Source: Flavobacteriales bacterium
Lineage (GTDB): Bacteria > Bacteroidota > Bacteroidia > Flavobacteriales > UBA7430
NCBI GenBank assembly: GCA_002692065.1
Contig: NZJX01000020.1
Span: forward strand, 26,428 to 89,535
Direction of reading: 5' to 3'
Length of the DNA: 63,108 bases
Shown: positions 3 to 56,305 of the stretch, in pieces
Position numbering within the stretch: position 1 is the first letter of the stretch
How the letters are laid out: every line of letters starts with the position of its first letter
Notes under the pieces: model-generated
Told to the model about the DNA's origin: nothing
The model's input: only the letters and a program-made list of their open reading frames with translations
Database searches by the model: none
Translations under genes and position numbers: made by a program

Positions 3-269
3 AAGGGTATTCCTGGAAGAACCGGATATTCCGCTTCTAAGTATGCTGTGCAGGGTTTTTTAGAAGCTTTAAGAATTGAAAATTTAAAAAAATCCCTCCA
101 TATTTTAATCGCATACCCTGATTATACCTCAACTAATATAAGGTTTAATGCCATTGATTCATCTGGTAAACCTCAAGGTAAAACACCAAGAAATGAGAAT
201 ATAATGATGACCCCTGATTATGTTGCAAAAAAAATCTTTTATGCTTATCAAAAAAAAAAAATAGTATAA
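3..269 (+). CDS. SDR family oxidoreductase, C-terminal part (5' end outside window)
   Basis: This is the C-terminal part of a short-chain dehydrogenase/reductase, an NAD(P)-dependent cytoplasmic oxidoreductase. The frame is open from base 3. It shows the catalytic YxxxK motif as YSASK within about the first 13 visible residues, preceded by GIPGRTG and followed by AVQGFLEALRIE, a typical SDR helix. The substrate cannot be told. The frame stops at 267-269 just after a run of 12 A (250-261). The +1 frame continues without a stop to 385 and encodes a plausible SDR tail ending in EPDSPF that abuts aroK. A real frameshift, transcriptional slippage or a one-base assembly error is therefore likely. 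Confidence 0.8.
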   Translation, partial: KGIPGRTGYSASKYAVQGFLEALRIENLKKSLHILIAYPDYTSTNIRFNAIDSSGKPQGKTPRNENIMMTPDYVAKKIFYAYQKKKIV

Positions 270-385
270 TAATTTCAAAAAATTTTTCTTTTAAATTAAT
301 TAAGATTTTAAACCTTTTCTTTCCTAGAATAATTGATAATATTATTCTTAAGACAGTCGGAAGTGAACCAGATAGTCCTTTTTAA
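250..385 (+). other. Poly-A frameshift site and frame-shifted tail of the SDR gene
   Basis: Bases 250-261 are 12 consecutive A. Read with one extra A, the SDR frame avoids the TAA at 267-269. It then runs through a hydrophobic, basic tail (KILNLFFPRIIDNIILK) to EPDSPF and a TAA at 383-385, which overlaps the aroK ATG as TAATG. From memory of flavobacterial SDRs, such a tail is usual. The peptide quality and the exact junction with aroK are seen in the sequence. Whether the cause is polymerase slippage, mutation or sequencing error is not decidable here. Confidence 0.6.
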
Positions 386-903
386 TGAAAATTTATTTAA
401 TTGGATATACTGGATGCGGAAAATCAACTTTAGGAAAAAGAATTTCAAGAAAAATTAATTTTAATTTTGTTGATACTGACGATTATATTGAAAGTAAATT
501 TAATGACACTATTTATAATATCTTCAGAAATAAAGGTGAATTTTTTTTTAGAAATTTGGAATTTATTACTTTTAAAGAATTACAATCAAAAAATAAAATA
601 ATCATATCAACTGGAGCAGGATTTCCCTTTAATAGTAATCTAATTGATAAAATGAATAATAGTGGAATAACTATTTTTCTTAAAAAAAATATTGAAGTAT
701 TAAGTGAATGTTTATGGCAATTTCGTAAAAAAAGACCAAGAATATCTTCTTACAAGAGTTTTAATTCATTTGATAAATTTATAAAACAAGATTATAAATT
801 AAGAGAATCAGCATATATGAAGGCCGATTACATATTTAACTTAGATAAAATGTCAAATAAAACAATTTTAGAAAATATATTTAAAATAATTAATTATGAT
901 TGA
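385..903 (+). CDS. aroK: Shikimate kinase
   Basis: It phosphorylates shikimate to shikimate 3-phosphate in the aromatic amino acid (chorismate) pathway, in the cytoplasm. At 172 aa it has the normal family length. It shows the P-loop GYTGCGKST (residues 7-15), the DTDD magnesium/shikimate-binding motif (30-33), Arg56 in the shikimate-binding region, a GAG turn (77-79) where the family has GGG, and the lid motif RPRI (117-120). The ATG overlaps the possible frame-shifted end of the SDR gene, and the 3' end overlaps the next gene by 8 bases, so these genes look co-transcribed. aroE, the preceding pathway step, lies at 12305-13027 in another operon. Confidence 0.93.
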   Translation: MKIYLIGYTGCGKSTLGKRISRKINFNFVDTDDYIESKFNDTIYNIFRNKGEFFFRNLEFITFKELQSKNKIIISTGAGFPFNSNLIDKMNNSGITIFLKKNIEVLSECLWQFRKKRPRISSYKSFNSFDKFIKQDYKLRESAYMKADYIFNLDKMSNKTILENIFKIINYD

Positions 904-53530: not shown

Positions 53531-54895
53531 TTAAGTAAATTCTTTTTGTATTTTATTGAGCCCATCTCTTATTATTTTTTGTATTGGAATCTTTGAGGTA
53601 CATGAAAATTCACATAGGGCAAAATCTTCTTCAGCAACCTCATAGATCCCTAATTTTTCCATAAGCTCAATATCATTAAAAATTGTTGCTTTAATTAGTT
53701 GTTGAGGATAAATATCCATAGGAAAAATTTTTTCATATTGACCTGTAACTACATATGCTCTTTCTTCTCCATTCATGTTAGCAGAGATGGTATACTTTTT
53801 TTTCATATTTAACCATGAATAGAAAGTTCTTGATAGGCTAAACTTAGATAATCCAGGAAGGAGCCATCCAAGAAATTCAGTATTATTGCCCTCTGGTATA
53901 ACACAAATTTCGTTATGATAATAACCTAAATACCCTTTGCTGTCAATTTTTTTTCCAGTTAGGACATTTCCACTAATATATCTGTTCTCAGAATTACTTT
54001 TGTTAAATATAATATTATCAGAAATTATATTTTCAATTGAAGCACCCCTTAATAGTCTGTAGTATCTTGGATTTTTGACTTGAGATCCACCTAGGGCAAT
54101 TAATTTTGAAGCATCATAAATTCCATTTTCAAAAAGCTTTGATATTGCGATAATATCTTGTGTGTATAAATACCAAATCACCTCTCCTTTATTAATTGGA
54201 TCAATGTGATGAATTTGGGTTCCAATATTACCAGATGGATGAGGACCTGAGAATTGGTTAATTTGAACACCACTAGTAGTTTTAAAAACATCAGAACAAT
54301 CAGAATTTGAAATTATATTCAAGTGTACAATTCCATCTGTAAGTTTTTTGATTATATTGATACCATTTTGAAATTCTCTGTTCATTCCATGTATAATAAA
54401 GTTGTTGTCACAAGCCAAAGGAGATGTATCAAATGTAGATATATGAATTGATTTAGGAATGTCATTAGGATTAGCGATAATTGCAAAAGGTCTTTGTCTA
54501 ATAGAAGGCCATAAACCAGATTCTAGTAATTGCTTTACTATTATGTTTCTATCTAACTCATCAAATTTATATTTTTTAAATTTTTTGTAGTTTATTTTTA
54601 AATTAGATTCTATTATGATTGATAAAATTTTTCTTTTAGCTCCTCTATTAATTTGAGTGACAGAGCCACTAACTGGAGAAGTAAATTTTATATTAGGGTT
54701 TTTTTTGTCAAAAAAAACTACGTCTCCTGATAAAACAACATCTTTTTCTTTAACTGCAAGCTTGGGTGTAATACCTATAAAATCAGATGGATCAATAGAA
54801 TAAAACTTTGACTTAGGAACATTAGCATACAGTTTCTCAGCTACTCCTTTAAGTCGGATATCAATTCCCTTTTTTATCTTTATTTTTAAAGACAT
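53531..54895 (-). CDS. nqrA: Na+-translocating NADH:quinone reductase subunit A
   Basis: Cytoplasmic quinone-associated subunit, 454 aa, first gene of nqrABCDEF. It starts IKIKKGIDIRLKGVAEK, then DFIGITPKLAVKEKDVVLSGDVVFFDKKNP (about residues 38-67), SPVSGSVTQINRGAKRK, and later PNDIPKSIHISTFDT, FSGPHPSGNIGTQIHHIDPI and a C-terminal YEVAEEDFALCEFSC. No iron-sulfur or flavin motif, as expected. Transcribed from a probable promoter at 54930. Confidence 0.95.
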   Translation of the reverse strand: MSLKIKIKKGIDIRLKGVAEKLYANVPKSKFYSIDPSDFIGITPKLAVKEKDVVLSGDVVFFDKKNPNIKFTSPVSGSVTQINRGAKRKILSIIIESNLKINYKKFKKYKFDELDRNIIVKQLLESGLWPSIRQRPFAIIANPNDIPKSIHISTFDTSPLACDNNFIIHGMNREFQNGINIIKKLTDGIVHLNIISNSDCSDVFKTTSGVQINQFSGPHPSGNIGTQIHHIDPINKGEVIWYLYTQDIIAISKLFENGIYDASKLIALGGSQVKNPRYYRLLRGASIENIISDNIIFNKSNSENRYISGNVLTGKKIDSKGYLGYYHNEICVIPEGNNTEFLGWLLPGLSKFSLSRTFYSWLNMKKKYTISANMNGEERAYVVTGQYEKIFPMDIYPQQLIKATIFNDIELMEKLGIYEVAEEDFALCEFSCTSKIPIQKIIRDGLNKIQKEFT

Positions 54896-54937: not shown

Positions 54938-55044
54938 ATTTATTTAATGTGCATTTAAAAAAGAATTTTAATAAATATTTTAATATTATTAACAATTTTT
55001 CTGTAGTAATTTTCATACTTTTATAAAGTAAATTTTTTTTTATG

Positions 55045-55055
55045 TTTTTTTTTTT
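55045..55055 (+). other. Poly-T frameshift tract behind the ATG of the T9SS plug gene
   Basis: The ATG at 55042 is followed directly by 11 T. With 10 T (or 13) the frame runs on as a hydrophobic signal peptide (FFFSLFSLILLSNLSYSQ) into the plug protein. With 11 T it stops at once after a short wrong-frame peptide. No in-frame ATG or GTG exists between the upstream in-frame stop at 55007 and the TTG at 55085. Either on-off slippage, or a one-base assembly error. Confidence 0.6.
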
Positions 55056-55084
55056 CTTTATTCAGTCTAATTTTACTTTCGAAT

Positions 55085-56305
55085 TTGTCTTATTCGCAGC
55101 CAGATTGGGAATATAACAAAATTTTAGAAGATAGTATTTTCAATAATAGAATTAAAACATGTTTGCTTTATTCAGAAACCAATAATCGAACCATACCAAA
55201 AATACTTATTAACTCAAATGAGAGATTGGTATTACAATTTGATGATTTAAATTTGAATCCAAAAAATTACATGTATAAAGTTTATCATTGCAATTATGAC
55301 TGGTCAATTTCTGATTTGAGCGAAATTGATTATTCAGAGGGATTTGTAAACAATTTTATAGAAAATTATGATTTTTCAAGTTTACCAAATGTACAATATG
55401 TTCATTATGAGGAATATATTCCAAACAAAAATTTCAATTTTATTAAATCTGGAAATTATATCTTAAGTGTTTATGATTATGATAGTAACAATCCTTTATT
55501 CAATAAACGTTTTATAGTTTATGAAGATATTGTAAAAATAAATGCAAATATCCATCAATCCTCGATCCCAAGATACAGAAAATTTCTACATGAAATTGAT
55601 TTTAATGTAAATTTGAATAATCTAGAATACTTCAATATATTTAGCGATTGTAAAGTAATAATATATCAAAATCATAATTGGTACAATTCAATTAGCGACC
55701 TCGTCCCATCTTTCATAAATGATAATTTATTAGAATACGATTATGAATATGAATCAAGTTTTAATGCTGGAAATAACTTCAGAAGTTTTGATACTAGAAG
55801 TACCAGATATAAAGGAGAAAATATAGAAAAAATTTTTCAGGATAGCGTAATTACTTTTGTTCTAAAAGCAGACAAGCCCTACAAAAGTGATTTTTTTTCA
55901 TCCATATCTGATATTGATGGTTACTACATTCCTGATATTCACGAACGAAATTATCCATCAATCAATTCAGATTATGTTTGGGTGAATTTTTGTTTGAATT
56001 TTAACAATAATTTTGAAAACAATAAAATTTTTATTTATGGAGGGCTTACAAATTGGAAATTATCTAATAATGCAATCTTATATTATGATAAGGATTTAAA
56101 TTGTTATGAAAATTCATTACTGTTAAAGCAAGGTTACTATAATTATTCTTATTTGATCATTGAAAATGACAAGATTAATAATATTGACGGAGACTTCTTT
56201 GAAAATAATCAAATTTATAATCTATTTTTTTATGTGCATGATTATAATTATTCATATGATAGAGTAGTAGGATTTAAAAAAATTAATTCAAATAGTTTTT
56301 TTTAA
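55085..56305 (+). CDS. T9SS plug protein (DUF5103)
   Basis: DUF5103 proteins match the Plug that closes the SprA translocon channel of the type IX secretion system on the periplasmic side. The 406-aa readable part shows NYMYKVYHCNYDWSISDLSEIDY (about residues 62-82), the ENYDFSSLPNVQYVHYEEYIP stretch and a C-terminal NNFENNKIFIYGGLTNWKLSNN, all typical. The protein must be periplasmic, yet the TTG start at 55085 lies at the end of a signal peptide coded upstream in the same frame. The probable native start is ATG 55042 read with one T fewer in the following tract. Confidence 0.82.
   Translation: MSYSQPDWEYNKILEDSIFNNRIKTCLLYSETNNRTIPKILINSNERLVLQFDDLNLNPKNYMYKVYHCNYDWSISDLSEIDYSEGFVNNFIENYDFSSLPNVQYVHYEEYIPNKNFNFIKSGNYILSVYDYDSNNPLFNKRFIVYEDIVKINANIHQSSIPRYRKFLHEIDFNVNLNNLEYFNIFSDCKVIIYQNHNWYNSISDLVPSFINDNLLEYDYEYESSFNAGNNFRSFDTRSTRYKGENIEKIFQDSVITFVLKADKPYKSDFFSSISDIDGYYIPDIHERNYPSINSDYVWVNFCLNFNNNFENNKIFIYGGLTNWKLSNNAILYYDKDLNCYENSLLLKQGYYNYSYLIIENDKINNIDGDFFENNQIYNLFFYVHDYNYSYDRVVGFKKINSNSFF

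Follow-up and report, generated by a model that had tools for sequence, protein, structure and literature searches.

An out-of-frame start at a T11 tract in a Flavobacteriales T9SS plug gene, most likely a matter of tract-length noise

The plug gene and its start region

The stretch of DNA analysed here (the window; 63,108 nucleotides, free of Ns) carries a gene for the T9SS Plug protein next to a divergent RnfC-like gene (Table 1). Plug seals the quiescent SprA translocon (PMC10994853; PMC7463736). The encoded protein matched the profile PF17116 (T9SS_plug_1st) over all of its 126 positions (1-126), with an E value of 1.6e-34 and 119 bits against a cutoff of 23.9. It is 43-47% identical to full-length family relatives, and alignment with them showed an unbroken frame of 400 codons in which the conserved residues are retained. 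The same genome encodes an intact SprA, with an open frame of 2410 codons, and T9SS cargo represented by 42 matches to the TIGR04183 sorting domain. With SprA intact and so many cargo proteins present, a working T9SS, and hence a working Plug, is to be expected.

A preliminary description of this DNA had placed the signal peptide of the gene one base out of register with an ATG followed by 11 T, and had held that 10 or 13 T would let the ATG read through. The sequence, the ORF list and the translation all agreed with the first statement, and translation of the region with 8-14 T bore out the second. No ATG, GTG or TTG lies upstream of the TTG at 55085 within the stop-to-stop frame, and the ORF listing begins the gene only there. 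Read from the ATG at 55042, the consensus with 11 T reaches a stop after 24 codons. Only 10 and 13 T gave a continuous product (420/421 aa, MFFFSLFSLILLSNLSYSQPDWE...), that is, in silico the plug frame depends on the length of the tract, being ON with 10 or 13 T and OFF with the other lengths. As judged by eye, a Sec signal peptide is likewise encoded only with 10 or 13 T.

Table 1. Features of the plug region, the second frameshift of the window, and tract-associated breaks elsewhere in the window's genome (G000; contig:position)
Feature	Location	Strand	Basis or remark
RnfC-like gene, divergent neighbour of plug	53531-54895	-	ORF list; adjoins plug also in two relatives, G003 and G004
T9SS Plug open frame (PF17116), intact downstream of the tract	55010-56305	+	ORF list, profile match, alignment
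TACTTTTA, candidate Bacteroidota -7 promoter element (TAnnTTTG-like)	55016-55023	+	Pattern match; within the open frame but before its translated part
ATG, probable true plug start	55042-55044	+	Sole ATG of the region; 1 base out of frame in the consensus
T11 tract shifting the frame, followed by C	55045-55055	+	In frame with 10 or 13 T
TTG, first standard in-frame start of plug	55085-55087	+	Product from this TTG lacks a signal peptide
A12 tract cutting an SDR-family gene (about -432..269)	250-261	+	Comparison with relatives
der/EngA	C9:25659		Gene-internal break
rseP	C21:39472		Gene-internal break
3-Hydroxyacyl-CoA dehydrogenase	C16:98219		Gene-internal break
Sulfotransferase	C3:71342		Gene-internal break
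DUF349-like gene	C12:31510		Gene-internal break
Methyltransferase	C2:44335		Gene-internal break
Unknown gene	C15:139990		Gene-internal break
mutY (A15)	C3:116809		Start-adjacent tract, one base over
Thioredoxin-like secreted protein (T11)	C9:28246		Start-adjacent tract, one base over

Related species with an in-frame start had been named beforehand as evidence against a switch, and at the family level nine of ten relatives keep such a start for the signal peptide, located 16-22 codons before a QP(E/D)WE motif. In the intact relatives, the hydrophobic signal segment ends just before this motif. The tenth relative (G007, genus g4) has a frame break at the plug start together with nine further internal stops, and neither of the two g4 genomes, of which it is one, has an in-frame ATG at this place; in this genus plug probably starts at TTG or GTG. 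A T tract comparable to T11 was absent from the plug start in all ten family relatives.

In the window, the ATG at 55042 stands 18 codons before the QPDW motif when read with 10 T, and 18 nt downstream of the candidate -7 box. TAnnTTTG-like boxes were found 14-22 nt before the plug start in eight of the ten relatives; these spacings were measured directly, the upstream DNA being too divergent for a MAFFT alignment to be read. A sigma-70 scan was uninformative. Since the relatives start 16-22 codons before QP(E/D)WE and the -7-like box lies 18 nt upstream, translation very probably starts at the ATG at 55042, in which case the frame break would affect a real signal peptide. One small reservation concerns the n-region: signal peptides without a basic residue there are unusual, and MFFF... 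has none, an in-frame lysine being found only farther upstream, at 55025. The in-frame stretch upstream of the ATG overlaps the candidate -7 box.

The Plug of the window's genus sits on a long branch: it is about 45% identical to all of its relatives, whereas these are 63-79% identical to each other. The branch leading to the window measured 0.66 for plug versus 0.38 for the adjacent RnfC, which served as the single control gene of this relative-rate comparison, and the G003-G004 distances were about equal for the two genes. Scanning the GTDB r220 contigs with the Plug protein of the window gave no match, and a profile scan of GTDB r220 returned only distant relatives, of 45% identity or less. 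Viral contigs held one distant match, which was of no use.

Frame breaks at A/T tracts in the assembly and in a same-genus genome

The plug tract had been described as the second homopolymer frameshift of the window, and the other one proved to be real as well: an A12 tract truncates an SDR-family gene, leaving a product of 233 aa, about 30-45 residues shorter than the 261-278 aa of relatives. The C-terminus of the latter, ...FFPKWVDKLVYxHMxKExDSPF, can be made out in the next frame as ...FFPRIIDNIILKTVGSEPDSPF. The phase of this break is +2, opposite to that of the plug tract.

We covered about 1.56 of the 1.65 Mb of the window's genome, a metagenome-type assembly, and examined each A/T tract within coding sequence for continuity of the reading frame. 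Changes of frame occurred at 2-3% of tracts of 6-8 nt, which on reading were mostly gene junctions, and at about 8% of 9-nt tracts; those at 8 and 9 nt were left uncounted as breaks, as gene junctions and redundant contig copies are among them. At 11 nt, the frame was broken in 5 of 23 coding tracts, each time within a gene. Reading the long-tract cases one by one yielded seven gene-internal single-base breaks at A10-A13, with one direction common to all. In each of the five genes scanned, Pfam domains span or border the junction. In der and rseP, both expected to be essential, the downstream frames are open beyond the breaks. In two further genes the tract adjoins the start, as in plug; these are mutY and a gene for a thioredoxin-like protein, where T11 disrupts the signal peptide. 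Frame changes at C11:6282, C11:26008 and C4:4852 were rejected as breaks, being due to adjacent genes with the start codon at the tract. Of the 11 long-tract breaks listed, 10 are too long by one base (or too short by two), namely the seven gene-internal ones, mutY, the thioredoxin-like gene and plug. The break in plug belongs to a class that recurs in this assembly.

The assembly also allows tract lengths to be compared between its own contigs, because redundant overlaps cover 122,785 aligned bp, with 123 substitutions and identities of 99.65-99.96%. The contigs concerned are C16/C9, C12/C8, C2/C7, C10/C19, C1/C7 and C2/C5/C20, and these long overlaps probably account for most of the 6.8% 'contamination' of the assembly. 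Overlapping copies disagreed in tract length at 1 of 382 tracts of 6 nt, 1 of 170 of 7 nt, 3 of 91 of 8 nt (one difference being counted twice), 3 of 39 of 9 nt and 2 of 8 of 10 nt. The rise with length is steep, and at 10 nt the disagreement is about as frequent as frame breaks are at 11 nt.

A second genome of the genus (G001; 0.72 Mb analysed) has a mean identity of 94.9% to the window's genome over 664 kb. Tract lengths were equal in 38 of 41 clean pairs at 10 nt and in 6 of 9 at 11 nt. At all four broken sites covered, the tract in this genome was one base shorter (rseP, 10 versus 11; sulfotransferase, 10 versus 11; methyltransferase, 12 versus 13; mutY, 14 versus 15). Its frame is open at the sulfotransferase, the methyltransferase and mutY (MLKKKKIKFSEI...), rseP having been compared by tract length alone. 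Among its coding tracts of at least 10 nt no gene-internal breaks were found, those of the flagged ones that were read being gene junctions. This difference in break rate (7 of about 84 coding tracts in the window's genome versus 0 of about 38) is suggestive and, taken alone, not significant. The two genomes also differ in their tract spectra, with 31 versus 12 tracts per Mb at 11 nt and 83 versus 102 at 10 nt in the window's genome and its congener, respectively, the sums being equal; the 12- and 13-nt spectra differ likewise.

Tract-length noise and its alternatives

Taken together, the breaks in housekeeping genes, the shorter tracts in the same-genus genome and the disagreement between overlapping contigs make noise in tract length the most likely source of the T11. 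We put a probability of about 0.7 on the tract being consensus noise, either an assembly error or a minority strain allele, with a working allele that is in frame. On this reading the locus would be an ordinary T9SS Plug gene starting at the ATG at 55042, with one T too many in the consensus. In this assembly, the length of A/T tracts would be unreliable from about 9 nt upwards, through a slip in assembly or sequencing or through a strain variant entering the consensus. Most cells would probably have the tract in frame, with 10 T or possibly 13, and Plug would carry its Sec signal peptide, be exported and serve to seal the SprA pore. We infer both the in-frame working allele and that the extra T represents no regulated state. 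The plug tract itself has no internal cross-check, as the assembly holds no second copy of the locus and the same-genus assembly has neither plug nor the RnfC gene beside it. One observation counts against noise: the ten breaks are biased towards one base too long, the SDR break being opposite, and PCR or sequencing stutter usually shortens tracts. This bias could stem from the merging of conflicting contigs or strain alleles, or from real tract expansion tolerated by transcription slippage.

The last possibility leads to a different account, in which T11 is a genuine, near-fixed allele, RNA-polymerase slippage makes some in-frame mRNA, enough Plug is exported, and the other broken genes are tolerated in the same way. 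A real mutational or selective process would fit the one-extra-base bias better than stutter does, and the broken genes include der and rseP, both with open downstream frames and expected to be essential. Plug, too, has a homopolymer of at least about 9 nt at the break and an open frame beyond it, and 11-nt tracts are known sites of transcriptional slippage (tssM1, PMC4256274), which has also been proposed for genes of Blochmannia vafer (PMC3017870). However, the assembly's own overlapping contigs differ about as often in the length of long tracts, and the same-genus genome showed none of these breaks inside genes; we therefore regard this account as unlikely, while granting it a real chance. 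The preliminary description had offered two readings, a systematic error in the data and phase variation. The former is the one that we favour, given the contig disagreement, the breaks in der, rseP and mutY and the shorter tracts of the congener. Phase variation would mean that replication slippage in the T tract toggles Plug export between cells and so alters the state of the T9SS pore. An 11-nt tract right after a start codon is as expected of a contingency locus, and contigs of the population do differ in tract lengths, but the ten family relatives have no tract at the plug start, housekeeping genes, for which switching would be senseless, are broken in the same manner, and most tracts have kept their length between the two species of the genus. 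Moreover, the gatekeeper of the pore is encoded by plug in a single copy, and a cell lacking nothing but Plug would have a wide, unsealed pore instead of a neat stop to secretion. Literature searches turned up nothing on homopolymer phase variation in Flavobacterium or gliding and, judged from titles and abstracts, no precedent in Bacteroidetes. On balance, we consider a switch improbable.

Two further readings concern the gene itself. Translation might begin not at the ATG at 55042 but at the TTG at 55085 or at some non-standard codon, in which case Plug would lack a normal signal peptide. The g4 relatives, with their probable TTG or GTG starts, would offer a parallel, and the MFFF... n-region without a basic residue, together with the lysine upstream, also points this way. 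Against it, the intact relatives begin upstream of the hydrophobic signal segment that precedes QP(E/D)WE, the position of the -7-like box puts the upstream lysine codon in or beside the promoter, and a start at 55085 leaves four residues before QPDW and thus no export signal for a periplasmic protein, which makes another start very improbable. Least credible of all is that plug is losing its function in the window's lineage as an early pseudogene. Its branch is indeed longer than that of RnfC, but this relative-rate test relies on one control gene, 400 codons are intact with their conserved residues, and both SprA and T9SS cargo are present.

Were the breaks real, many conserved genes of a free-living marine bacterium would depend on slippage, and to our knowledge such dependence has been seen mainly in endosymbionts and single cases. 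That a free-living, AT-rich member of the Flavobacteriales has genuine breaks in der, rseP and plug, and puts up with them across its genome through polymerase slippage, as insect endosymbionts do, appears to us rather unlikely. In this assembly, the frame cannot be read from A/T tracts of at least 9 nt, and the truncated plug, der, rseP, mutY and SDR genes should not be called pseudogenes or switches from the assembly alone.

Comparison with known systems

The T6SS gene tssM1 of Citrobacter rodentium is rescued by transcriptional slippage at an A11 tract (PMC4256274). Like plug, it belongs to a secretion system and has its frame broken by a homopolymer of 11 nt, whereas the plug tract consists of T and not A on the coding strand, lies at the start instead of within the gene, and is known here from consensus DNA alone. 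In Blochmannia vafer, eight homopolymer-frameshifted genes have been described, including dnaX, dnaG and pth, and rescue by slippage was proposed (PMC3017870). The frameshifts of Blochmannia and Buchnera (PMC3017870 and work cited in it) resemble those reported here in being single-base breaks at A/T tracts in conserved, otherwise intact genes of an AT-rich genome. In contrast, theirs come from curated complete genomes, whereas the window's assembly disagrees internally and the same-genus genome is free of the breaks. With contingency loci, plug shares a homopolymer directly after the start codon; unlike in such loci, the tract is not conserved in relatives, and plug is no typical target of surface variation. 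As for Plug proteins proper, the SprA-Plug complex of Flavobacterium johnsoniae is PDB 6H3J, as cited in PMC7463736. The window's gene differs from a T9SS Plug in a consensus start that is out of frame by one base, and resembles one in its full match to the first domain, its 43-47% identity to family relatives, and the presence of SprA and T9SS cargo in the same genome.
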